Of a DNA stretch of 64,000 nt, positions 2,220 to 24,207 are shown in pieces; position 1 is the first letter of the stretch; each line of letters starts with the position of its first letter. Under the pieces are notes generated by a model. That model was not told the DNA's origin. It saw nothing but the letters and a program-made list of their open reading frames with translations, and searched no databases. Source of the stretch: Ensifer oleiphilus (GTDB lineage Bacteria > Pseudomonadota > Alphaproteobacteria > Rhizobiales > Rhizobiaceae); assembly GCF_013371465.1 (NCBI RefSeq), contig NZ_JABWDU010000003.1:992001-1056000 (forward strand). The letters are read 5' to 3'. Both the position numbers and the translations under genes were made by a program.

Positions 2220-2223
<4 letters not shown>

Positions 2224-3164
2224 GAAAAGACGATCCTTGGGAAATAGAAGGACACGACCCAGTTCGGGGCGTCAACGATCTCGCTGATCCGGAGATCGCC
2301 GCAGACCGAGCAGAGCAGATAGGCATCGACCGGGCTCAATCCATGCTCGGCACCGAGCAGGTCGATCATGCGCATCAGGCTTTCTCGGGCGCCCGTCATC
2401 AGATCGGGGCCGATGCCGGTCGTCACTTCGTAGCCGGCAGCATCAAGATGGCGGGTCACTGGCCCCGGCGTTGTGAAGCGCGGGCTCGCGAGACGCGCAT
2501 CCTTCACCAGCTCGATAGTGGCCTCGACCTCCATCTGGCTCTCGATGGCGGTGCCGCAGACTTCGCCGTCGCCCTGGGCTGCGTGCGTGTCGCCGATCGA
2601 AAACAGCGCGCCCTCGACCTCGACGGGCAGATAGAGCGTGACGCCTGACGTCAGGTCGCGAATGTCGAGATTGCCGCCGACCCGGCGCGGCGGCACGACG
2701 GAATGCAGTCCCGGTTCGGCCGGCGCCACACCGATCGTACCGGCAAACGGCTTCAACGGAACGCGCCCGCCGGGGCCATAAAGCGCCGGCGCCATGGTGC
2801 TGGCCTCATAGGACCACATATGCAGCGCCGGCTCGCTGAACTGGTCGGCAAGCAGACCGAAGCCCGGAATATTGGCGGTCCAGCCGACGCCCGAGGGTAC
2901 GAAGCGGCGGATCGTAACCTTCAGCGCGTCGCCGGGTGCCGCACCCTCGACATAGACCGGGCCGGTGACCGGGTTGATCCGGTTGAAATCGAGCTTTGCC
3001 AGCGTCTCGAGCGTCGAGCCCGCACGCAACTGTCCGCCCGACGAATCCAGGCACTCGAAATGAATGGTTTCGCCCGGCTTGGCGATCAATGTCGGTTCAA
3101 AATCGCGGTTCCAGCCGAAATGATGCTTGGCGCGGTGAATGGTATGGGTGCAGGCAACGCACAT
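2220..3164 (-). CDS. Acetamidase/formamidase family protein
   Basis: A 314-residue protein that reads throughout as the FmdA/AmdA acetamidase-formamidase family. Members hydrolyse short-chain amides such as formamide or acetamide to the acid and ammonia. Recognisable segments are the N-terminal HTIHRAKHHFGW, the central GDTHAAQGDGEVCGTAIES with its conserved His and Glu, and the C-terminal LLCSVCGDLRISEIVD. No signal peptide is present, so it is cytoplasmic. It sits between the solute-binding protein gene and the ATPase gene of the same operon, and its stop overlaps the ATPase start. This places an amide-cleaving enzyme inside an importer operon controlled by AmiC/AmiR homologues. Exact amide preference cannot be read from sequence. 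Confidence 0.9.
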
Positions 3165-3224: not shown

Positions 3225-4844
3225 TTATTGCTTCACGTAGATCGCGTCGTAGTTGATGACGCGGGTCGGATCGACGTAGATCTCGCCGGCGCCGCCCATG
3301 CGTGGCGACTTGGCAACGACGCGGCGTTCGTTGGTCACCGGCACCCAGGGCGCGTCCGCCATGATGTCGGTGAAGATCTTGCCCCAGGCCGCCTGGCGCT
3401 CGCCGGCCTTGGCCGGATCGGACATGGAGTCGGCTTCAACCGCACGCTTGTCGAGCGCCTCGTTGCAGTACCACGACCAGTTCCAGCCACCCTGAACCGC
3501 GCCGGAGCAACCGAGGATCGGCCCGTAGAAATTGGACGGATCCGGGAAGTCGGCGATCCAGGCCATGCCGCCCGACCAGATCATCGGTGCTTCGCCTTCG
3601 GTGCCGCCGGCAGCAATCACGTTGGCCTGGGCGAGTGCCCGGACCTCGGCCTTGATGCCGACGGCTGCCAGATCCTGCTGAATCGCCTGGGCGATGCGCG
3701 GCTGCGGATCGGTGTTGGTGGAATAGAGGATCGTTTCGAAACCATCGGGGTGACCGGCTTCGGCGAGCAAGGCCTTCGCCTTTTCGACGTCGAAGGCGTA
3801 ACCGGTGAAGCCCTTGTCGTAGCCCGGCATCAGCGGCGGCAGCGGCTGGTTGGCGGGCGTGGCGCGACCGTTGAGGATGCGGGTGATGCGTTCCTTGTTG
3901 ATCGCCATGTTGACGGCCTGGCGCACCTTGACGTCGTCGAAGGGTTTGACCTTGGTGTTGAGCGTCACGTAGCCGGTATGCAGTTGCTGACCGTCGACGA
4001 TGATCTCGGCGCCCTCGGGCGAGTTCTTGATCTCGAGGAACTTTGCCGGCGGAATGCCGTCGCCGGCGATGTCGACCTCACCCTTCTGCAGGCGCAGAAG
4101 CGCGACCAGCGGCTCCTGGCCAACCTCGACGGTGAACTTGTCGATGCGCGGCATGTCCTTGATGAAATAATCCGGATTGCGCTCGAAGGTCAGGCTCTGG
4201 CCGACGGTCCAATCTTTCAGGATGAAGGTGCCGGAGCCGACCGGCTTCTTGCCGAAATCGCCCGCGGCAGCCTCGACCGCTTCCTTCGGCACGACGGAGG
4301 CGAAGTTGACGGCGAGAACATGCAGGAAGGTGGCATCGGGGCGCGACAGGTGGAAGACCACGGTTGCGGCATCCGGTGCCTCGATGCCTTCGAGCGTCGT
4401 CGTCTTGCCGCCGGTGACATCATCGAAGCCCTTGATGGCGCCGAAGAAGCCGGCGCCCGGCCCTTGCGTCTTCGGATCGACCGCGCGCTCGATCGAGTAT
4501 TTCACGTCGGAGGCGACGATCTCACGACCGTTGGTAAACTTGGCGCCCTTGCGAAGCTTGAACGTGTAGGTCAGGCCGTCGGGCGCGACCTCGAAGCTCT
4601 CGGCAAGCGACGGCACAAGCTCGGTGGTGCCCGGCGTATAGTCCATCAGCCGCGAAAACAGGCTCTTGATCATCGACCAGTTGACCCAATCGTAGCCGAT
4701 GGCCGGATCGAGCGTGGCGATGTCGTCCTTGTAGGTGATGACGATGTCGCCGCCCTGCTTTGGCGCGTCCTGCGCAAAGGCAGGCAGTGGCGCGAGCACC
4801 AGCGCCGTCGCGACGGTTGAATTTCGAAGCCAGCGTTTGAACAT
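3225..4844 (-). CDS. ABC transporter solute-binding protein, DppA/OppA type (SBP_bac_5)
   Basis: A 539-residue periplasmic binding protein of the large dipeptide/oligopeptide class. The ATG at 4844 is preferred to an in-frame ATG at 4871 because AAGGGG lies just upstream and the product then begins with a classical signal peptide (basic MFKRWLR, hydrophobic core, cleavage near AFAQ|DA). Family hallmarks include the early GGDIVITYKDD strand and the mid-protein VRQAVNMAINKERI segment. It should capture the substrate for the two permeases encoded immediately upstream. With the acetamidase gene next to it, an amide or a peptide-like amide ligand is plausible, but the binding pocket cannot be assigned here. 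Confidence 0.93.
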   Translation of the reverse strand: MFKRWLRNSTVATALVLAPLPAFAQDAPKQGGDIVITYKDDIATLDPAIGYDWVNWSMIKSLFSRLMDYTPGTTELVPSLAESFEVAPDGLTYTFKLRKGAKFTNGREIVASDVKYSIERAVDPKTQGPGAGFFGAIKGFDDVTGGKTTTLEGIEAPDAATVVFHLSRPDATFLHVLAVNFASVVPKEAVEAAAGDFGKKPVGSGTFILKDWTVGQSLTFERNPDYFIKDMPRIDKFTVEVGQEPLVALLRLQKGEVDIAGDGIPPAKFLEIKNSPEGAEIIVDGQQLHTGYVTLNTKVKPFDDVKVRQAVNMAINKERITRILNGRATPANQPLPPLMPGYDKGFTGYAFDVEKAKALLAEAGHPDGFETILYSTNTDPQPRIAQAIQQDLAAVGIKAEVRALAQANVIAAGGTEGEAPMIWSGGMAWIADFPDPSNFYGPILGCSGAVQGGWNWSWYCNEALDKRAVEADSMSDPAKAGERQAAWGKIFTDIMADAPWVPVTNERRVVAKSPRMGGAGEIYVDPTRVINYDAIYVKQ

Positions 4845-4874
4845 TGTTGTTCCCCTTGTTGGTTGCTGCATGAT

Positions 4875-5795
4875 TTAACGGGCGCGAATGCGTGGATCGA
4901 CGAGCGGCGCGAGAATGTCGGCAAGCAGATTGCCGAGCACGATCGCGAGCGCCGAAACGAGCGTCACCCCCATGATGATTGGAATGTCGACCTGCTGGAT
5001 CGCCTGCCAGGCGAGCTGGCCGATGCCGGGCCAGCCATAGACGGCCTCGACCACGACGACGCCGCTCATGAACTGGCCGATATCGATGCCGATCATGGCG
5101 ATGATCGGCAACAGCGCGTTGGGCAATGCGTGGCGAAAGATGATGCGGGCCGACGACAGGCCTTTTGCCCGGGCGGTGCGGACATAATCCTGGTTGAGTA
5201 CGTCGATCATCGCCGAGCGCACCATGCGCGCATACCAGCCGGCACCGAGAACACCGAGCGTCAGCGCCGGCAGCACCACATGGGCCGGCGTGCCAAAGCC
5301 GCTCATCGGGAACCAGGCGAGCGTGACGGCGAAGACGTAGAGCAGCAGCAGTGCCGCAACGAACTGCGGCGCCGAGACGCCGACGAACGACGCCATCATG
5401 ACGAAGCGATCGACGAAACCGCCACGACGGACGGCCGCGAGCACACCGAGGAACACGCCGAGCACCACCTCTACGGCGATACCCGCCGCCATCAGGATCA
5501 GCGTCGCCGGCAGCCGGGCGGCGATCAGCGCGCCGACATCGGTCTTCTGCGCGTAGGACCGGCCGAGGTCGCCCTGAAACAGGCCCTGCAGATAGCTCCA
5601 GAACTGCACGAGCAAGGGCTGGTCGAGGCCGAGTTCTCGCCGGATGTTGGCGACCGTCTGCGCCGTGGCACTGCGGCCGGCGATCATGCGGGCGGGATCC
5701 GCGGGAAGCGCATAGAGCAGCAGGAAGGTGATGGCGGCAACGCCTAAGAGAATGAGCGCGGTCTGCACCAGACGGCGAAGCAGCAGGAAAACCAT
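4875..5795 (-). CDS. Peptide-type ABC transporter permease, DppB type
   Basis: The chosen start is ATG 5795, one base after the stop of the upstream DppC-type gene, giving about 306 residues beginning MVFLLLRRLVQ. An ATG 48 bases further upstream would overlap the neighbour. About six membrane helices are visible. The cytoplasmic EAA-type loop contains YVRTARAKGLSSARIIFRHALPNAL-like sequence, the standard contact site for the ATPase. The LPADPARMI segment after helix 1 is typical of DppB/OppB proteins. It forms a heterodimeric channel with the next permease. The family is certain and the ligand unknown. Confidence 0.93.
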   Translation of the reverse strand: MVFLLLRRLVQTALILLGVAAITFLLLYALPADPARMIAGRSATAQTVANIRRELGLDQPLLVQFWSYLQGLFQGDLGRSYAQKTDVGALIAARLPATLILMAAGIAVEVVLGVFLGVLAAVRRGGFVDRFVMMASFVGVSAPQFVAALLLLYVFAVTLAWFPMSGFGTPAHVVLPALTLGVLGAGWYARMVRSAMIDVLNQDYVRTARAKGLSSARIIFRHALPNALLPIIAMIGIDIGQFMSGVVVVEAVYGWPGIGQLAWQAIQQVDIPIIMGVTLVSALAIVLGNLLADILAPLVDPRIRAR

Positions 5796-5796
5796 C

Positions 5797-6645
5797 TCAG
5801 CCCCTCCCCCGCTGCGTCGGGTCGAGTATGTCGCGAAGCGCATCGCCGACCAGATTGAAGGAGAGAGCGGTCAAGAGGATGACGGCACCGGGGATGAAGA
5901 CCAGCCAGGGAGCGGCCTGAAAATAGCTCTGGCTTTCGAAGATGATATTGCCCCAGGACGGTGTCGGCGGCTGCACGCCGATGCCGAGAAAGGAGAGCGT
6001 CGCTTCGAGCAGCACTGTTGTGGCGATGCCGAGCGTTCCCCAGACGATCGCCGTCGGGATCAGATGCGGCAGGATGTGATGAAAGAGGATGCGGCCATGC
6101 CCGGCGCCAAGCGAGCGCTCGGCCAGGATGAAGTCGCGCTCCACCAGCCCGCGTGTTTCGGTGTAGACGATGCGCGCCACCTGCACCCAGTTGACGAGCG
6201 CGATCACCATGGCGACGATCCAGAGACTGGGGCGCAACAATGCTGCGAGAACGATGGCCAAGAGCAACGCCGGAAAGGCCATCATCAGATCGGTGAAGCG
6301 CATCAGCGCGCCGCCGACGATGCCGCGCATATAGCCGGAGAGAATGCCGATCAGTAGCCCGATCGTCACCGCGATACCGTTGGCAACGAGGCCGATGACG
6401 AGCGAGGTGCGGGCGCCGTAGAGAAGCCGCGAGAACAGATCGCGCCCGAGCGTGTCGGTGCCGAGCAGGAACTGCGCGCTCGGCGGCAGCGGCGCGCCCT
6501 CCAGCGTCAACCCGTCGAACATCTGCTCATCCGGGCTGTAGGGCGCAATCAAGGGGGCGGCAACTGCGAGGAACACCACAAGGGCAACGACGATCAGGCC
6601 GAACAGGGCTGCCGGCTGGCGGACCATGGCTTTCAATGCTTCCAT
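5797..6645 (-). CDS. Peptide-type ABC transporter permease, DppC type
   Basis: A 282-residue permease with an N-terminal hydrophobic segment, the DppC/OppC hallmark HFLLGTDTLGRDLFSR-like motif (here QFLLGTDTLGRDLFSR, about residues 58-73) and the EAA loop containing LAERSLGAGHGRILFHHILPHL. Further hallmarks are the LEATLSFLGIGVQPPTPSWG segment and the C-terminal FNLVGDALRDILDP. It pairs with the DppB-type permease. Its ATG shares one base with the TGA of amiR (TGATG), so the regulator and transporter genes are translationally coupled and probably form one transcript. Confidence 0.93.
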   Translation of the reverse strand: MEALKAMVRQPAALFGLIVVALVVFLAVAAPLIAPYSPDEQMFDGLTLEGAPLPPSAQFLLGTDTLGRDLFSRLLYGARTSLVIGLVANGIAVTIGLLIGILSGYMRGIVGGALMRFTDLMMAFPALLLAIVLAALLRPSLWIVAMVIALVNWVQVARIVYTETRGLVERDFILAERSLGAGHGRILFHHILPHLIPTAIVWGTLGIATTVLLEATLSFLGIGVQPPTPSWGNIIFESQSYFQAAPWLVFIPGAVILLTALSFNLVGDALRDILDPTQRGRG

Positions 6646-7226
6646 CAGCCTGCCTCCGGTAGCGGCTCGGCGCCACCCACAATCGAGGCTGCGACCTGCT
6701 CCATCGACAGCCGCCGCTGCATGGCGCAGTTGCGCAGGATGCGATAGGCCTCTTCTTCATCGAGCCTGCGGACACTGCTGATCTTTTGAACGGCGGCATG
6801 GACCAGCGGACGCATGCGCACCCGTTCTTCCAAATGGGCGATCTTGTCGATGACGCTCTGGCGCTCGCGATGGATGGCAAGCGCCATGACCAGCGCGGGA
6901 TAGACGGCCGATGACGCCAGCGGTTTGGCGATGATGGCGGAGGCACCCTGATCCATCGCCCAGGCGACACGGCCGGGTGCTTCGGACCCGAGCAGGGCCA
7001 CGAGCGGGCGCGGCGCGCGCGCGTCGGTCCAGGGCAACAACCCGGTCCAGCCCTGATCGGCATCGACCAGAATGAGATCGGGCAGATTATCGGCGGCAAG
7101 CGGCGTCCATTGAACATGAACGTGAAAGCCGAAAAGTTTCAACTGGCGGGTGAGGCGTTCCGTCGTTGCATCCTCACGATGGAGGATCGTGGCGCGCCAG
7201 CCGGCGAAATTCGGTGTTTCCCTCAT
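6645..7226 (-). CDS. amiR: AmiR-like ANTAR-domain transcription antiterminator
   Basis: A 193-residue protein with an N-terminal pseudo-receiver (roughly residues 10-115, containing LPDLILVDADQGW and GASAIIAKPL) and a C-terminal ANTAR domain (about 125-187, with LDEEEAYRILRNCAMQRRLS). ANTAR proteins bind RNA and prevent terminator formation. In Pseudomonas, AmiR is held inactive by the amide sensor AmiC. Here the start at 7226 overlaps the amiC stop by four bases (ATGA), matching that regulatory pair. A candidate terminator/antiterminator lies in the leader upstream of amiC (8367-8432). The assignment as amiR is by fold, length and partner. Direct RNA binding is inferred. Confidence 0.88.
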   Translation of the reverse strand: MRETPNFAGWRATILHREDATTERLTRQLKLFGFHVHVQWTPLAADNLPDLILVDADQGWTGLLPWTDARAPRPLVALLGSEAPGRVAWAMDQGASAIIAKPLASSAVYPALVMALAIHRERQSVIDKIAHLEERVRMRPLVHAAVQKISSVRRLDEEEAYRILRNCAMQRRLSMEQVAASIVGGAEPLPEAG

Positions 7227-8359
7227 GAGACGATCCGGAGCTGGGGTGGCTTGCGCGTGCGCCGGCCTGTCAGATACGGGTCGGCAACGATGGCGGGCTC
7301 GGAAGCGATAATGTCGAAGCCACCCTCGTCGTTAATGCGACCGAGGTGAAAAGGAAGTGCCGCGTGGCGGGTTTCGGCATCGATCCGGAGCGGACCGAGA
7401 ACGGTCGAGCGCGGTGCTGTGCAAAGCAGGCTGGACACGGTCGCCGGATCGTCGGTGCCGGCATCGATGATCGCCTCGGCACAGAGCTTGACGGCGGCAT
7501 AAGCGCTGGCAAAGACGCTGGAAATCCGGCGCGACGCGCCGAAACGCGCGCTCACCTCGGCCTTGAATGCCGCGTTTTCAGCGGAGGCCACGGTGTCGAA
7601 ATAGGCGGCGGCACAGAGCTGGCCGGTCGCCACGCCAAGACCGATATCGGTCAGCTCGCATTCCTGCAGATCACAGCTGACGACAGGGCAATTTTCCGGG
7701 CGGAAGGCGGGATCGCGCTCGCCAAGTGCCCGGATCGCGGCATGAAAGGCATAGCTCGACGGGCCGACGAGATTGTTGAGGATGAAGCTCGGCCGCCGCT
7801 GTTCGATCTCGGCGACGATGCGCTCGACTGCCGTTTCCTCAAGCGGCAGGTAGCGTTCGCCGAGCACCGATCCGCCCGCCTCCTCGATCAGTTCGCGGGC
7901 GAGCCGGTTCATTTCCCAGCCCCAAACATAGTTGGCACCAACGAGATAGGGGCGACGACCAAAGCGCGGCAGGAGATAGTCGAGCAGCGGCAGCAGATGC
8001 TGGTTCGGACAGCCGCCGGTATAGATGACGTTGTCGTTGGCCTCGAAGCCCTCGTAAGGGCACATGTACCAGAGCAACCCGTCATGCTTTTCGACGAGCG
8101 GGATGACCTCCTTGCGCGCCAGCGACGTGATCGTGCCGACGATATGCCGGCAGCCCTGATCGCGCAGCAGCGTGCGCGCGCCTTCGAGGTACTGATCGAT
8201 ATTGGCATGCGGGTCGATGAATACAGGCTCGATGCGGCCGGGATAACGCGCCGTGATCTCATCGATCGCCAGCTCGGCGCCATCGCGGCAGTCGCGGCCC
8301 ATCGTCCCGTAGGGGCCGGTTGTCGAGTAGAGGATACCGATCTTCACCGCGTCACGCAT
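7223..8359 (-). CDS. amiC: AmiC-like amide sensor (periplasmic-binding-protein fold, cytoplasmic)
   Basis: A 378-residue protein of the AmiC/branched-chain-binding fold starting MRDAVKIGILYSTTGPYG. It shares with AmiC the segments CPYEGFEANDNVIYTGGCPNQ and GRRPYLVGANYVWGWEMN. No signal peptide is present, consistent with a cytoplasmic sensor that sequesters AmiR. An alternative ATG at 8386 would add nine residues (MGFLVFGRS), but it lies inside the 3' arm of a terminator-like hairpin, so ATG 8359 is preferred. Its AGG-type site is only three to four bases upstream, so the start is not settled. It is the first gene of the operon. The ligand is probably a short amide. Confidence 0.87.
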   Translation of the reverse strand: MRDAVKIGILYSTTGPYGTMGRDCRDGAELAIDEITARYPGRIEPVFIDPHANIDQYLEGARTLLRDQGCRHIVGTITSLARKEVIPLVEKHDGLLWYMCPYEGFEANDNVIYTGGCPNQHLLPLLDYLLPRFGRRPYLVGANYVWGWEMNRLARELIEEAGGSVLGERYLPLEETAVERIVAEIEQRRPSFILNNLVGPSSYAFHAAIRALGERDPAFRPENCPVVSCDLQECELTDIGLGVATGQLCAAAYFDTVASAENAAFKAEVSARFGASRRISSVFASAYAAVKLCAEAIIDAGTDDPATVSSLLCTAPRSTVLGPLRIDAETRHAALPFHLGRINDEGGFDIIASEPAIVADPYLTGRRTRKPPQLRIVS

Positions 8360-8366
8360 GGACCTG

Positions 8367-8432
8367 CCAAAAACCAAAAACCCCATGACGCGTTTCCCAT
8401 CGGAGATGGGGCATCATGGGGCGAAACTGCCC
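8367..8432 (-). terminator. Candidate AmiR-controlled attenuator in the amiC leader
   Basis: On the minus-strand transcript an 8-bp perfect stem, CCCCATGA (8421-8414) with TCATGGGG (8388-8381), is followed by T5-GG-T5 (8380-8369), which looks like an intrinsic terminator. Within its loop a second hairpin forms, CCCATC/GATGGG (8410-8396). Just 5' is a short GGGC stem closing a six-base loop AGTTTC (8432-8419). Its 3' arm shares three bases with the terminator's 5' arm, so the two structures are mutually exclusive. ANTAR proteins bind paired hexaloop hairpins with A at loop position 1 and G at position 4. Here A1 is present and position 4 is T, so the match is partial. Confidence 0.6.
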
Positions 8433-8486
8433 GTCGACCATAGGGGTCATGTGAAATGGATTGAACTGCTCAATCCGTAGACAAGA

Positions 8487-8515
8487 TTAAGATACGGGCA
8501 ACGGACCTCTGTCAA
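8487..8515 (-). promoter_or_regulatory. Putative sigma-70 promoter of the amide operon
   Basis: On the minus strand TTGACA (8515-8510) and TCTTAA (8492-8487) are separated by exactly 17 bases. The -35 is perfect and preceded by C, the rhizobial CTTGAC preference. The -10 is weak. Initiation near 8480 would give a leader of about 120 nt before the amiC ATG, enclosing the attenuator. Confidence 0.5.
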
Positions 8516-8673: not shown

Positions 8674-11166
8674 TCAGAACTTCCGGCTGATGGCGATCTT
8701 GAAATTCCGGCCGGGCATCGCCGAGATCCCGTCGCTGAGATAGGGCTCGTAGTACTTGTCGAAGATGTTGTCGACGGCAAGATGCACCTCGCCGCCCTCC
8801 ATGAGGCCCGATGTCGGCGTCCAGTCGAGGAACAGGCCGTGCACCGCATAGCCGGCGCTCGGCGGGCGGGCATAGGTCTGGCCGCCCTGATTGTAGGGCG
8901 TGCGGTTCTGGTCGCCGACGAAGGTGCCGGTCCAGCCGAAGGCAAGGTCCCGATCAGGGACCTTGATCCCGGCGGTAGCAATCGCGGTCAGGGGTGCCAG
9001 ATCATTGATGTAGGTGTCGGGACCCCAGACATTGTTGACAGCACCGGTGCGCTCGCCCGTCATCCAGGAGACGCCGAGATCGGCGAACATGCGCTCGGTC
9101 TCGTAGTGCGATTGCAGCTCGATGCCGCGGATATTATAGGACGGCGTGTTCCAGTAGAACGGCACGTTGCCCGAGACACCGGTGAGATTGACGCTACCAA
9201 ACCGGCGTGTGACCGGATTGGAAACGTGGTTGTTGTAGAGCGAAATGCGGGTCGACAGCATGTCGTCGGTCATCAGCACGTCGTTGAAGCTCATGTCGAC
9301 GCCGATGTTGAAGGTGCTGTTGCGCTCGACGTCGAGATCGCGGCTGGTGCCAGAGGCCTTGGTCTGCACGCTCTGCGTCGAGTAGATCTCGTCGATGTTG
9401 GGCACGCGCATCGCATACGCCCAATCGGCAAAGAACCGCACCGACGGCGTTGCTTCCCACGAGAGGCTGATCGCCGGCGTCACGCCCTGGTGCGAGACGG
9501 CAGAATAATCGTGTCCGGCCAGCGGATTGTTGAAGCGCGGCGCTTCGTTTGGCACTCCTTTAGAACGGATGTGATCATAGCGCAGGCCCGGCGTCACGGT
9601 CAAAGTGTCGGTGAGTTCGATCCTGTCGCGGACGAAGGCCGCGAACGTTTTCTGGGTGCCTTCCGGCATGAACCAGGGGGCATAATAGCCGTAGTTGTAT
9701 TGCGCCTGGGTGCGGTTGGCGATGTCGTACATCCAGATGTCGCGGTCATGATCGAAGTACTGGACGCCGTAGTTCAGGCTGTGCGACAGGCCGCCGAGCG
9801 TGACGTTGGAGGTGTTTTCCGCCTCGAACTTGATGTCGGTATAGGCGGCATCGTTTTCATAGCCGCCGACGGATGCGCTGGGGTTGAGCCCAGGAATATC
9901 GGGGCGCGTCGCGTGCTGGCTGGTCTGCGCGAAGCTCGCCATCATGCGGTAGTTCACCAGGTCGCTGTCGCCGGTATAGCTGTAGTTCAGCGTCGAGGTG
10001 AAATCCTCGATCTCGCGCCAGGTGAGCAGGCGACGCATTGCTTCCTTGTAGCCGTAGCGCGTGATGTTGAAATCCGATGGCGCCGACTGGCCGCGAATGG
10101 CAGCCACCGGCCCCCAGTTGTCGTTCTGGCCGTAGGCGACCGTGCCTCTGATCTCGTGGCCGTCGTACTCGGCACCGATATTGGCAAGCAGCGTCGTGAG
10201 CTTCGAATTGGAATAGTTGTAGATTTCGCCGCCGCCGACACGCATGTCGTCGCTCTTGCGCCATGTCGCCGCCAGAAGTCCATCGTAGGTCACCGGGCCG
10301 CCGAAATCCGACTTGCCGTAGAGCGCACCGGTTTCGAGAAACTGCTTGTTGGCGCTCTGGAAGCCGGACTTGGCCCAGACGCCCCACTCTTCGCCCGGCC
10401 GCAGCATGTCGGCCGCGTCCGTGGTTTCCATCAGCACGGTGCCGCCGAAGCCGCCGTTGCCGTAACGCACCGACGTCGCGCCTTTTTCGATCTCGACGCG
10501 CTTCAGCAGTTCGGGCTCGATGAAGACCGTGCCCTGGTCGTATTTCTCGAAATTCTTCGGTGCGCCGTCGAGAATGATCCTGACATCGGACTGTCGGGCG
10601 AAGCCGCGGATGGCGAGTGTCTGTCCTTCGATGCGCACGCCACCGCCCATCGATACACCGGGGGTTTTCTGCAGCAATTCCGGGAGGCTCGAAGCTTGCG
10701 CCTTCTCGATGTCCTCGGCATCGAGAATGGCGACATTCGGCGCCCGGTCGCCGCGATTGGCATCGCCGCGCACGACGATCGGCGCCAGTTTCGTACCCTC
10801 GACGTCAACCGGCTCCGAGGCTTCGGTGGCACCCATGAGCTTCACCGTCGACCCGCCGAGGAACCGGTATCGGACGCCGGTTCCGCTCAAAAGACGCGAG
10901 AGCGCCTCATCCGCCGTCATCTCCCCGGAAAGGCCCGATGTTCTCACGCCTGACGCAACCGAGCTGTCGAACACGACCTGCAGCTTGAGCTGTGTGGCCA
11001 GGCGGTTGACGGCGGCGGTCAGCTTGCCGGCGGGCACGTCGACATGGTGCACCGACGCGTCCTGGGCAACCGCACCTGTGGCCGCAAAGGCAACCACAGT
11101 GCCTGCCATCAGCAGCTTGAAAATTCCGGAGTGGCGGCGTCCGCCGGTCGCATTCGAATATGGCAT
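8674..11166 (-). CDS. TonB-dependent outer-membrane receptor with N-terminal signalling (STN) domain
   Basis: About 830 residues from ATG 11166, chosen because GGAA lies just upstream; an ATG 15 bases earlier lacks this. A signal peptide (ending near AVAQDA) is followed by an STN/secretin-like domain (about residues 40-95, HHVDVPAGKLTAAVNRLA). Then come a TonB-box-like LAPIVVRG, a plug domain (about 120-240, with PGVSMGGGVRIEGQTLAIRG) and a 22-strand-type beta barrel ending in the terminal Phe ISRKF. The STN domain and the FecI/FecR genes upstream indicate a transducer receptor that signals ligand binding. The plug and barrel segments recall heme or haemoglobin receptors, but the ligand is not certain. 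No cognate ABC importer is adjacent. Confidence 0.93.
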   Translation of the reverse strand: MPYSNATGGRRHSGIFKLLMAGTVVAFAATGAVAQDASVHHVDVPAGKLTAAVNRLATQLKLQVVFDSSVASGVRTSGLSGEMTADEALSRLLSGTGVRYRFLGGSTVKLMGATEASEPVDVEGTKLAPIVVRGDANRGDRAPNVAILDAEDIEKAQASSLPELLQKTPGVSMGGGVRIEGQTLAIRGFARQSDVRIILDGAPKNFEKYDQGTVFIEPELLKRVEIEKGATSVRYGNGGFGGTVLMETTDAADMLRPGEEWGVWAKSGFQSANKQFLETGALYGKSDFGGPVTYDGLLAATWRKSDDMRVGGGEIYNYSNSKLTTLLANIGAEYDGHEIRGTVAYGQNDNWGPVAAIRGQSAPSDFNITRYGYKEAMRRLLTWREIEDFTSTLNYSYTGDSDLVNYRMMASFAQTSQHATRPDIPGLNPSASVGGYENDAAYTDIKFEAENTSNVTLGGLSHSLNYGVQYFDHDRDIWMYDIANRTQAQYNYGYYAPWFMPEGTQKTFAAFVRDRIELTDTLTVTPGLRYDHIRSKGVPNEAPRFNNPLAGHDYSAVSHQGVTPAISLSWEATPSVRFFADWAYAMRVPNIDEIYSTQSVQTKASGTSRDLDVERNSTFNIGVDMSFNDVLMTDDMLSTRISLYNNHVSNPVTRRFGSVNLTGVSGNVPFYWNTPSYNIRGIELQSHYETERMFADLGVSWMTGERTGAVNNVWGPDTYINDLAPLTAIATAGIKVPDRDLAFGWTGTFVGDQNRTPYNQGGQTYARPPSAGYAVHGLFLDWTPTSGLMEGGEVHLAVDNIFDKYYEPYLSDGISAMPGRNFKIAISRKF

Positions 11167-11259
11167 GATGATTCCAGACAATTGAAGATGACCGCGAAAG
11201 GGCCGGGTCTGGTTTCTGGACGAATGAGGTCCCCATACAGGGACACCTCGTCGCGATTT

Positions 11260-12252
11260 TTAGCGCAGGATCGTGATGTAGGGTCCAATCCGGTTGACCT
11301 TGATGTTGAAGGCGTCGGCAAGACCCTCCAACGCAATGACCGGATCGGAGAGATCGAAGCTGCCGGACACCCGTCGAGAGCCGACGGCAGCGTCGGCGAT
11401 CAGGACCTTGCCCGGGATGTAACGACCGATTTCCCCGACGACCGAAGAGATGGTGCGCCCGTCAAAGACGAGACGCCCGTCGCGCCATGCGGTCGCCAAC
11501 AGCGGGTCGACCGGTTTGATGTCACCGAGCCTTCCCTCGTGGTTGTAGCTCACCTGCTGGTTGATCTCGACGCGGCGCGGCGGTGTCGCCGCATCTGTCG
11601 CGACCGACACGGCGTGCTCAAGCACCGTGACGCTGGCCCCGTCGTCGGTCAGGTTGACGTCGAAGGCCGTTCCGAGCGCCGTCGTCGTTCCTGCGCCAGC
11701 CTCGACGACGAATGGCCTGTCCTTGTCGGCCGCGACCTGAACGAATGCCTCGCCACGCAACAGAACGATCCGGCGTTCGCCTGGGGTGAAGTGGTAGGCG
11801 ACAGCCGATTGAGCGTTGAGCTGCAGCGTCGAGCCATCGTCAAGTCTCAGGATCGGTCTCTCGCCCTTGTCGGCGATGACGTCGGCGCGCATCCACATTG
11901 CCCCGTCGAGCGCGAGAAAGGCGCCGGCGCTGGCAGCGAGAATGATCGCAAGCGATGCAGGGGTTTTTCGACGGTTTTCGGATGCCGCTACTGCTCTTTG
12001 AGCAAACTCCGGCTCACGCCTGATCAGTAGAGTGGCGTCACCGACCGCCCTTTGCGCCCGGGCAAAGATCTCGGCATGGCGAGGGTCTTCGGCGCTCCAT
12101 CGTTCAAACGCCAGCTGCAGCTCTTCATTGAAAGGGTCGCCTGTCAGACGCACAAGCCAGTCCACCGCCTGCTCTCGCACCCGTTTTTCGAATGCCTTGC
12201 GGTTGCGATTGACGGCGTCGCTCGGGAGATGGTGGTCGCCAACGGTGGTCAT
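11260..12252 (-). CDS. FecR-family anti-sigma regulator
   Basis: A 330-residue protein starting at ATG 12252, which overlaps the sigma-factor stop in ATGA. An upstream in-frame ATG at 12279 lies inside the sigma gene and is less likely. Order: N-terminal cytoplasmic DUF4880-like region (QAVDWLVRLTGDPFNEELQLAFERW), a membrane segment (about residues 98-115), then the periplasmic FecR domain (GERPILRLDDGSTLQLNAQS) and a C-terminal STN-like segment. It should hold the ECF sigma factor and receive the signal from the TonB receptor. The gene order sigma-FecR-receptor is the standard cell-surface signalling arrangement. Confidence 0.9.
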   Translation of the reverse strand: MTTVGDHHLPSDAVNRNRKAFEKRVREQAVDWLVRLTGDPFNEELQLAFERWSAEDPRHAEIFARAQRAVGDATLLIRREPEFAQRAVAASENRRKTPASLAIILAASAGAFLALDGAMWMRADVIADKGERPILRLDDGSTLQLNAQSAVAYHFTPGERRIVLLRGEAFVQVAADKDRPFVVEAGAGTTTALGTAFDVNLTDDGASVTVLEHAVSVATDAATPPRRVEINQQVSYNHEGRLGDIKPVDPLLATAWRDGRLVFDGRTISSVVGEIGRYIPGKVLIADAAVGSRRVSGSFDLSDPVIALEGLADAFNIKVNRIGPYITILR

Positions 12253-12773
12253 ACCGTGTCCTCCAGACGATCCAGGCAATGCAGGTAGGCCTTGCGCAGA
12301 TGTCGGTCCACCATGTTGCGGTTGATGCCCGTGCGCATCGCAATTTCGTCGGAGCTCAGATTGCCGATCCGATTTGCGAGAAAAACGCGCCGTCTTTGCA
12401 ACGACATCTCCATGATCGCCGTTTTCAGAATATGCAGCCTGCGGCGAAGGTCGATGTTGGCATCGGGGGCGGCGATATCGCTGGCAACGGCAAGCGCTTC
12501 TTCTTCGCTGCCGGAGAAAAGCTTCAGTTCGAAACGATCGCGGCGCAGCCGGTCGATGCCGAGATTGGCGCAGGCGCGGCGCAGAAACGCGCGCAAAGAC
12601 GATTTTCCCTCAAGCGACGTGCGACGATCCACCAGTCGCACATAGAGTTCGTGAACGACGTCGTTTGCCGTTGCCGGCGCGTGGCCGCGCCGCCGCGTCA
12701 TCGTGCAGAGCTCGTCGTAGTAGGCCACGATCGCGTCGTCGAGCATCAAATGCGAAGCTGATTTCTCTGACAT
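12249..12773 (-). CDS. FecI-type ECF sigma factor
   Basis: A 174-residue ECF sigma factor. Region 2 is at the N-terminus (ATANDVVHELYVRLVDRR, SSLRAFLRRACANLGIDRLRR). Region 4 is C-terminal, with the helix-turn-helix LSSDEIAMRTGINRNMVDRHLRKAYLHC. It should direct transcription of the receptor gene when the receptor is loaded. A TGA-N9-TCA iron box lies about 115 bp upstream, so expression is probably iron-repressed as well. Its TGA overlaps the fecR ATG. Confidence 0.9.
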   Translation of the reverse strand: MSEKSASHLMLDDAIVAYYDELCTMTRRRGHAPATANDVVHELYVRLVDRRTSLEGKSSLRAFLRRACANLGIDRLRRDRFELKLFSGSEEEALAVASDIAAPDANIDLRRRLHILKTAIMEMSLQRRRVFLANRIGNLSSDEIAMRTGINRNMVDRHLRKAYLHCLDRLEDTV

Positions 12774-22756: not shown

Positions 22757-22761
22757 CAGAG

Positions 22762-22817
22762 CAAAAGAAAAAGGCTTCCGAACGACTGGCGCTGCGGAAA
22801 CCCTTCTCTCGTGTAGC
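22762..22817 (-). ncRNA. Antisense counter-transcribed RNA (ctRNA/incA) controlling repC
   Basis: In the 155-bp repB-repC gap the minus strand carries TTGACA (22852-22847), a 17-bp spacer and GATTCT (22829-22824), a good promoter. About 20-40 bases on, GGTTTCCG (22802-22795) pairs with CGGAAGCC (22780-22773), one G-U wobble, followed by TTTTTCTTTT. That is an intrinsic terminator giving an RNA of roughly 50 nt. Its position and strand match the ctRNAs that repress repC translation in repABC plasmids. The exact 5' end is estimated. Confidence 0.82.
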
Positions 22818-22911
22818 AACTAGAGAATCCCATTTCCGCGAATCACTGTCAAGCGTTTTTAACGTCGTTTCGGCGAACGAACTTCTTTTGCCTTTGAAAA
22901 GGTGAAGAAAG

Positions 22912-24207
22912 ATGGAGCGTGGAAATGTGACGACGCCCTTTGGGCGGCGCGCGATGACGCTTGGCATGTTCGCAAGCCAAGTCGTCGCGAGCGAAATCGA
23001 TTCGCATCAGTCGATCGATAAATGGAAACTGTTTCGGACTGTCTGCGAAGCCAAGGCGATCGTCGGTGTGTCCGACCGTGCCTTGGCCGTGCTCAATGCA
23101 TTGCTCAGCTTCTATCCGAAGGTCGAGCTGACCAGCGGCAAAGGCCTGGTGGTTTTTCCGTCGAACAACCAATTAGCACTGCGCACGCACGGCATGGCGG
23201 GCACGACCTTGCGCCGTCATCTGGCAGCCTTGGTGGAAGCTGGCCTCATCCTGCGCAAGGACAGTCCCAATGGCAAACGCTACGCCCGCCGAGACACAAA
23301 GGGGTCGATCGGCGACGCCTTCGGGTTCGACCTTTCTCCGCTGCTCGCACGCGCCCGCGAACTGCAGACAGCAGCAGCCGACATCGCCCTCGCCCGCCAG
23401 GAGACGCAGCTCGCACGTGAGCGTCTCAGCCTCTGCCGCCGCGACCTTTCCAAGCTCATCGAAGTTCTGCGCGAAACCGATCCCGTATCCGATTGCGACG
23501 ACCTTCAGCAACGTTACCTGCTCGCCGTTGAGCCCCTTCCAAGGAAACCAACGCTTGCTGAAATCGAACATGTGCTCGGCAAACTCGGCGTCTTGCGCGC
23601 GGAAGTTCTCAACCAATTGGAAAAACTGATAAATTTGCGAAAACTGGGCACCAATGATAGCCAAAATGGCTGCCACATACAGAGTTCATATCCAGACTCT
23701 CCTACTGAATCTGAACAGGGCTTAGGAAACGACACTCAGGCAGGTTTGAGATCGAACGGCGGAGAAAGTGTTGTTCTCGATGAACCATCGGTTAGCGAAA
23801 TCGTCAGGACCAACTTTGCCGACAAGCCCGAGCCGATGCCGACTGAGCAGCGTCACTCCACACAGGCTTTCCCTCTATCGACTGTGCTGAAGGCTTGCCC
23901 TGATATCATCGATTATGGCCCTGGCGGCGAAATCCGCTCCTGGCGTGATCTGATGACAGCAGCCGTGGTCGTGCGCTCCATGCTGAATGTCAGCCAAGGT
24001 GCACATGACGAAGCTTGCCGGGTACTCGGCCCAGAAACGGCAGCCGCGGTGCTTGCATGTATTCTGCAGCGTTCGACGCACATTGCGTCAGCTGGCGGTT
24101 ACTTGCGCGATCTGACCCGCCGTTCACTCCGGAAGGAGTTTGCCGTCGGTCCGATGATTATGGCGTTGCTGCGATCCCATCCTGGCAACGTGTCGCTAGC
24201 CAGCTGA
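22912..24207 (+). CDS. repC: Replication initiator RepC
   Basis: A 431-residue protein starting at ATG 22912 after GAAGAAAG. It reads as RepC throughout: the N-terminal half contains FGRRAMTLGMFASQ and the winged-helix-like region LRRHLAALVEAGLILRKDSPNGKRYARR. The mid-protein Arg/Glu-rich helix is followed by a low-similarity linker (about residues 250-315) and a conserved C-terminal third (SWRDLMTAAVVVRSMLNVSQGAHDEAC). In this family the origin of replication lies inside the repC coding sequence, so the oriV of the replicon is expected within these coordinates. The antisense RNA upstream should limit its synthesis. Confidence 0.96.
   Translation: MERGNVTTPFGRRAMTLGMFASQVVASEIDSHQSIDKWKLFRTVCEAKAIVGVSDRALAVLNALLSFYPKVELTSGKGLVVFPSNNQLALRTHGMAGTTLRRHLAALVEAGLILRKDSPNGKRYARRDTKGSIGDAFGFDLSPLLARARELQTAAADIALARQETQLARERLSLCRRDLSKLIEVLRETDPVSDCDDLQQRYLLAVEPLPRKPTLAEIEHVLGKLGVLRAEVLNQLEKLINLRKLGTNDSQNGCHIQSSYPDSPTESEQGLGNDTQAGLRSNGGESVVLDEPSVSEIVRTNFADKPEPMPTEQRHSTQAFPLSTVLKACPDIIDYGPGGEIRSWRDLMTAAVVVRSMLNVSQGAHDEACRVLGPETAAAVLACILQRSTHIASAGGYLRDLTRRSLRKEFAVGPMIMALLRSHPGNVSLAS

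Follow-up and report, generated by a model that had tools for sequence, protein, structure and literature searches.

ANTAR proteins are described as recognizing an RNA with two hexaloops, each carrying A at position 1 and G at position 4 (A1 and G4; PMC3369931). In the E. faecalis eut genes the two hairpins are separated by linkers of 5–12 nt according to the same account, in which induction through EutV fell drastically with a linker of 3 nt. In the EutV report, Lys149 contacts G4 of the second hairpin, P2 (PMC8934654). K347 of NasR, which our alignment places opposite this lysine, matters by that protein's own report, where the K347R change is about 10-fold weaker and a C:G loop-closing pair was seen in SELEX (PMC7496416). 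A shortening model has been proposed for leaders of this type (PMC3369936), and a survey of actinobacterial ANTAR RNAs, which accepted linkers of 2–25 nt and one loop variation in its search step, reports diverged dual stem-loops (PMC8164766). The closest described arrangement to the one considered here is the P. aeruginosa amiE leader, in which two A1/G4 hexaloop hairpins lie upstream of an intrinsic terminator in an amide operon with an AmiC-like sensor and a regulator of the AmiR_N-ANTAR type (PMC3369936, PMC3369931).

The Ensifer oleiphilus locus has the same kind of sensor, regulator and amide operon, and its leader likewise places hairpins upstream of a predicted intrinsic terminator. 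The leader most likely works like the known ANTAR attenuators while departing in two features from the sequence by which the published motif is defined. It lies in a 64,000-nt stretch of contig NZ_JABWDU010000003.1 (positions 992,001–1,056,000), referred to here as the window; all coordinates are window positions, and the leader and operon are on the minus strand. The first gene, amiC (7223–8359), encodes an AmiC-like amide sensor (Peripla_BP_5) whose second-best match among solved structures is P. aeruginosa AmiC (E 2e-47) and in which no signal peptide is apparent by eye. Its start at 8359 is the one used by homologues, and an alternative start of a longer reading frame, at 8386, falls within the terminator. 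The second gene, amiR (6645–7226), encodes an AmiR_N pseudo-receiver joined to a C-terminal ANTAR domain, both above their curated Pfam cut-offs (PF21332, 35.6 bits against 27; PF03861, 42.7 bits against 27.3). From their domains, the genes that follow encode dppC-like (5797–6645) and dppB-like (4875–5843) ABC permeases, a family-5 substrate-binding protein (SBP_bac_5; 3225–4871), an acetamidase/formamidase-family amidase (FmdA_AmdA; 2220–3164) and a fused ABC ATPase with two ABC_tran domains (541–2223). The inclusion of transporter genes distinguishes the operon from the P. aeruginosa amide system, as does the position of the leader, which directly precedes amiC here and amiE in P. aeruginosa. 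Gene order is identical in R. johnstonii pRL11, and amiR adjoins amiC in all 110 loci examined.

The promoter proposed by the initial annotation is present, with a TTGACA −35 box at 8510–8515 and, after a 17-nt spacer, a TCTTAA −10 box at 8487–8492, both read from the sequence. The predicted leader of about 120 nt before the amiC start also holds if the assumed transcript start is correct. A TTGAC[AT] element occurs 76–89 nt upstream of P2 in all 79 leaders with a P2 called by regular expression (81 tried), and most relatives have (T)ATTTTA by eye at the −10 position. A simple consensus scan picked up neither this promoter nor the terminator of the leader. Close to the likely transcript start, folding and alignment place a 5′ hairpin, P0 (8458–8476), with a conserved ATTRRGCA element; most relatives instead form a GCCU-N7-AGGC hairpin across this element (alignment columns 10–24), with 86% of cells paired and double changes in 3 of 4 pairs. 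Among the 40 plasmid records listed, DNA similarity begins at the promoter in 21 (query 184–201, window 8517–8500), just before P1 in 12 (query 246, window 8455) and, in 7 records from Ensifer, at a point farther upstream.

Downstream of P0 follows a pair of neighboring hairpins with stems of 3 bp or more. P1 (8436–8448), which was absent from the initial annotation, can be drawn as GAC-CCCUAUG-GUC or as GACC-CCUAU-GGUC and lies 3 nt upstream of P2 (8419–8432), a putative antiterminator hairpin with the sequence GGGC-AGUUUC-GCCC. The 3′ arm of P2 forms the base of the 5′ arm of the terminator (8381–8422), which is followed by the U-tract TTTTTGGTTTTT (T5GGT5; 8369–8380). The hexaloop with its GGGC stem was thus correctly recognized and does overlap the terminator, with 3–4 shared bases rather than just the three first described. 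Similarly, the terminator-like stem and the T5GGT5 tract are there as annotated, but the stem consists of 12 outer pairs and a 6-bp inner hairpin (−29.1 kcal/mol) rather than 8 bp.

Folding energies are consistent with a competition between P2 and the terminator. The minimum free energy of the leader is −53.6 kcal/mol. Shuffled versions give −40.1 ± 3.7 kcal/mol (z −3.7), and 1 of 200 folds equally well. When no pairs are imposed, the terminator is favored over P2. Forcing P1 and P2 together in the window transcript costs 4.1 kcal/mol, leaving an 8-bp distal stem and an unpaired GGGG beside the U-tract. Forcing P2 alone costs 3.8 kcal/mol in the window and a mean of 5.6 (SD 2.5, range 0–13) over 81 leaders, the computed cost being 0 in at least one of them. 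This computed competition fits the shortening model, and an AmiR dimer gripping P1 and P2 could pay the cost of forming P2.

The initial annotation had offered conserved pairing in homologous leaders as a check, and this is borne out: P1, P2, the terminator and the inner hairpin are kept in 81 leaders, with compensatory changes. These comprise the window and the best 80 of 155 relatives from one AmiC scan, in all of which the leader block could be aligned. All 81 precede a terminator, whereas few of the actinobacterial ANTAR RNAs are reported to do so (PMC8164766). The terminator drawing has 92.5% of cells paired, against 30–43% for slid controls, with double changes in 13 of 24 pairs; the P2 drawing has 94.0% paired with double changes in 9 of 17. 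For both drawings the covariation score was reached in 0 of 500 shuffles, which ignore relatedness. Most of the covariation is held by the terminator and inner hairpin, where 9 of 17 pairs show double changes. P1 and P2 barely vary, and for this reason their covariation rests on two rows each (GC to AU in P2, AU to GC in P1). All four P2 pairs are nonetheless present in 81 of 81 leaders, and P1 is paired in all 80 rows with letters, L112 having a gap there. In L066 and L112 the regular expression for GC-rich hairpins missed P2 because its outer pair is A-U, yet both are paired in the alignment. P1 lies beside P2 more often than chance would give: a neighboring hairpin accompanies P2 in 43 of 52 dereplicated leaders linked to an AmiR lacking the G4-contact lysine (non-Lys leaders), compared to 15.0 ± 3.2 in shuffles (maximum 25 in 300 runs).

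There are several departures from the published target. First, G4 is missing from P2, so that the guess of a variant motif, made from this loop, was sound: in the 81 rows position 1 is always A, and position 4 is U in 68, A in 13 and G in none (examples are AGUUUC, AGUUUG, AAUAUC and AACAGC). In the wider set of 52 dereplicated non-Lys leaders, in which P2 was called regardless of loop sequence and the calls of L147, L179, L180, L182, L186, L189 and L190 were added before dereplication, 47 have A1, and position 4 is U in 24, C in 11, G in 9 and A in 8. Second, only P2 has a hexaloop as a rule. Drawn with a 3-bp stem, P1 leaves a loop of 7 nt in 61 of 80 leaders, of 6 in 14 and of 8 in 5, and many of the 7-nt loops could close one further pair to leave 5 nt. 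The window P1 loop begins with C and lacks the G found at position 4 in 60 of 80 P1 loops over all sizes, so neither of its hairpins has A1 and G4 together; both loops do in the P. aeruginosa leader (PMC3369936, PMC3369931). Third, the linker is 2–3 nt, against 5–12 nt in E. faecalis eut, from which the leader also differs in the missing G4 and in a valine for Lys149 (PMC3369931, PMC8934654). It shares with eut the overlap of P2 with the base of the terminator, A1 in P2, and the C:G loop-closing pair, which is present in 81 of 81 P2 hairpins, 80 of 80 P1 hairpins and 51 of 52 P2 hairpins in the dereplicated set. By eye, a YYYGNNN heptaloop recurs in P1 across clades on unrelated stems (GAC/GUC and CCGGC/GCCGG).

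Two smaller groups of leaders have different loops. In six from a sub-clade with Thr at the Lys149 position (L014, L018, L019, L021, L025 and L146), P2 lies only 46–54 nt after TTGAC and has loops such as AUUUGG, AUCUGG or AUCCGG; five lack an adjacent P1 as defined in the shuffle comparison, L021 being the one with a P1, and these leaders are possibly single-hairpin ANTAR attenuators. Three other non-Lys leaders (L171, L172 and L118) keep G4 in P2 (AAAGAG, AAUGAA and AUCGGA) with GAAAA as the P1 loop, and perhaps follow a different sub-code.

The protein departs from the known systems at the corresponding place. The ANTAR domain of the window AmiR aligns with that of EutV without gaps, and the residues matching the EutV RNA contacts Arg142, Glu160, Tyr164 and Met172 (PMC8934654) are all kept, but the position of Lys149 is occupied by Val146. 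P. aeruginosa AmiR has Lys at this position in the alignment. Among 110 AmiC-linked AmiRs (L003–L112; 104 distinct sequences) the residue is V in 83, I in 19, T in 6 and L in 2. Lys-type AmiRs (L113–L115 and L220) have leaders with G4 (AGGGCA, AGGGUA). A tight coupling between loss of Lys149 and loss of G4 looked clean at first and became weaker on wider sampling. G4 is present in 9 of 117 non-Lys leaders with a P2 call, a count that keeps the seven added calls (129 distinct non-Lys leaders, 12 uncalled), and in a further one on a Klebsiella plasmid (L218); the Lys-type leader of an A. tumefaciens plasmid (L221) has AAAAAA in P2 and AUCGGA in P1. For L218, L220 and L221 the P2 loops are manual entries, read by eye. 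On an AmiR tree of 140 rows, K149 changes two times and G4 three times, omitting the seven added calls, which looked misplaced. Since the tree allows one independent contrast, with exceptions besides, a co-change of K149 with G4 is only suggested by these sequences.

Within the 6.76-Mb genome, a covariance model of the leader (R1), with 150 of 4309 first-look candidates scored, gives 96.4 bits for the window leader and 17.3 bits (E 0.42) for the next match; there are three such further matches, with E from 0.42 to 4.7. The best of these, L207, is the one inspected and was rejected as lying early in an open frame by eye. AmiR therefore seems to serve its own operon, and a single site is consistent with self-control. 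A search for canonical A1/G4 dual hexaloops in the stretch near the second ANTAR gene of the genome (L210) and in seven others (L211–L217) gave one weak match, in L217, and the genome thus supplies no internal positive control. This second ANTAR protein, L002, has a receiver domain, an ANTAR domain and Lys at the K149 position; no NCBIfam model is above cut-off among its 25 matches listed, and the label NasT-like finds no backing in them.

Could these elements have a more ordinary explanation? Upstream, a TonB-dependent receptor gene in the same orientation ends at 8674, and the hairpin and U-run might simply be its 3′ terminator, with P1 and P2 incidental. This is very improbable: the conserved promoter intervenes between the receptor gene and the hairpin, P1 and P2 are kept in every row that can be judged, in relatives of the R. 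leguminosarum group the hairpin stays near amiC, and in R. johnstonii the gene upstream is a different one (DUF1349). Attenuation by a leader peptide or by coupling to translation is scarcely credible either, notwithstanding the conserved ATG in CACATGAC, which opens a small frame through P1, P2 and the terminator, in the window of 32 codons with its stop overlapping the amiC start. An ATG is at this position in 79 of 81 leaders (in L045 a downstream ATG was picked), but the frame ranges from 8 to 36 codons in the 59 of 79 where it closes and meets no stop within the stretch read in the other 20, P1 loops with 6 or 8 nt put it out of register, and no ribosome site precedes the ATG by eye. The conserved sequence around the 5′ arm of P1 accounts for the ATG itself.

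A different concern is that the attenuator is real and its RNA is read by something other than AmiR, namely the Lys149-type protein L002 or a ligand-binding RNA element. AmiR has lost the lysine that contacts G4, and L002 is encoded in the same genome. The leader, however, lacks the very base that EutV, of the Lys149 type, contacts, and the constant pairing of amiR with amiC favors AmiR as the reader. For a ligand-binding element, comparison with Rfam 15 found no family at threshold and two sub-threshold matches at E up to 10. We regard this explanation as quite unlikely.

We therefore favor, with a probability of about 85%, the interpretation that the leader is an ANTAR-controlled transcription attenuator through which the operon would regulate itself. 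This had been proposed initially, and it gains support from the conserved and covarying leader, the ANTAR and AmiR_N domains, the match to AmiC and the single site in the genome. The absence of G4 from P2 and of an A1/G4 hexaloop from P1, the short linker and the missing lysine all count against it; given the departures in motif and lysine, either the protein reads its RNA differently or another factor does so. In the mechanism we propose, transcription would start a few bases past the −10 box and the nascent leader would fold into P1 and P2. Without inducer, AmiC would hold AmiR, as in P. aeruginosa, the more stable terminator would displace P2, and RNA polymerase would halt at the U-tract, 9 nt upstream of the amiC start codon. 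With inducer, presumably an amide, a freed AmiR dimer would grip the P1 and P2 loops. P2 would then retain GCCC, the terminator would lose the four G-C pairs adjoining the U-tract, and the weakened terminator would allow read-through into amiC-amiR-dppCBA-amidase-ATPase. Termination in vivo, binding of AmiR to the leader and its release by amide are thus predictions of the model, as is release of the regulator by a binding protein rather than by the phosphorylation that applies to EutV.

More broadly, the Rhizobiales AmiC-linked AmiRs may be an ANTAR subfamily with an RNA code of its own, a tentative proposal that we consider plausible but somewhat short of probable. An aliphatic residue or Thr would replace the G4-reading lysine; P2 would be read by its shape, A1 and the C:G pair; P1 would have a loop rich in pyrimidines and frequently a G at loop position 4; the linker would be 2–3 nt; the Thr149 sub-clade may have dropped P1; and such systems could coexist with G4-reading ANTAR systems in one cell without cross-talk. 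A model of the 2012 type would be expected to miss these leaders, because A1 and G4 are fixed in both loops (PMC3369931). No report of this variant was found in the one open-access library searched, though supplementary tables may list Rhizobium leaders. The AmiC-linked leaders provide many natural leader-regulator pairs without G4, the sole contact with a specific base described for the EutV crystal, and ANTAR choice of RNA is therefore directly testable. They also suggest a concrete model for control of an amide-uptake operon common in Rhizobiaceae.

Relatives of AmiC are also found in Klebsiella, which accounts for 727 of the 1019 plasmid records that match at E up to 1e-40. In the one record opened, pKN-LS6, there is an amiC-amiR-permeases arrangement with, by eye, its own terminator-like leader (L218:1380-1480), the loop AAUGAA and a non-Lys AmiR. 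A plasmid operon of this type has been described in a Klebsiella strain that shows acetamidase activity (PMC13209695), which supports, by analogy only, an amide as the signal for the Ensifer operon.

Elsewhere in the window, the genes directly upstream on the same strand (8674–12773) encode a TonB-dependent receptor, a FecR protein and a sigma-70-family (ECF-like) protein by Pfam, a set that looks like Fec-type iron uptake. Rfam matches to ctRNA_p42d and S-element occur at 22761–22914, which we take to point to a plasmid replication region of the repABC type.
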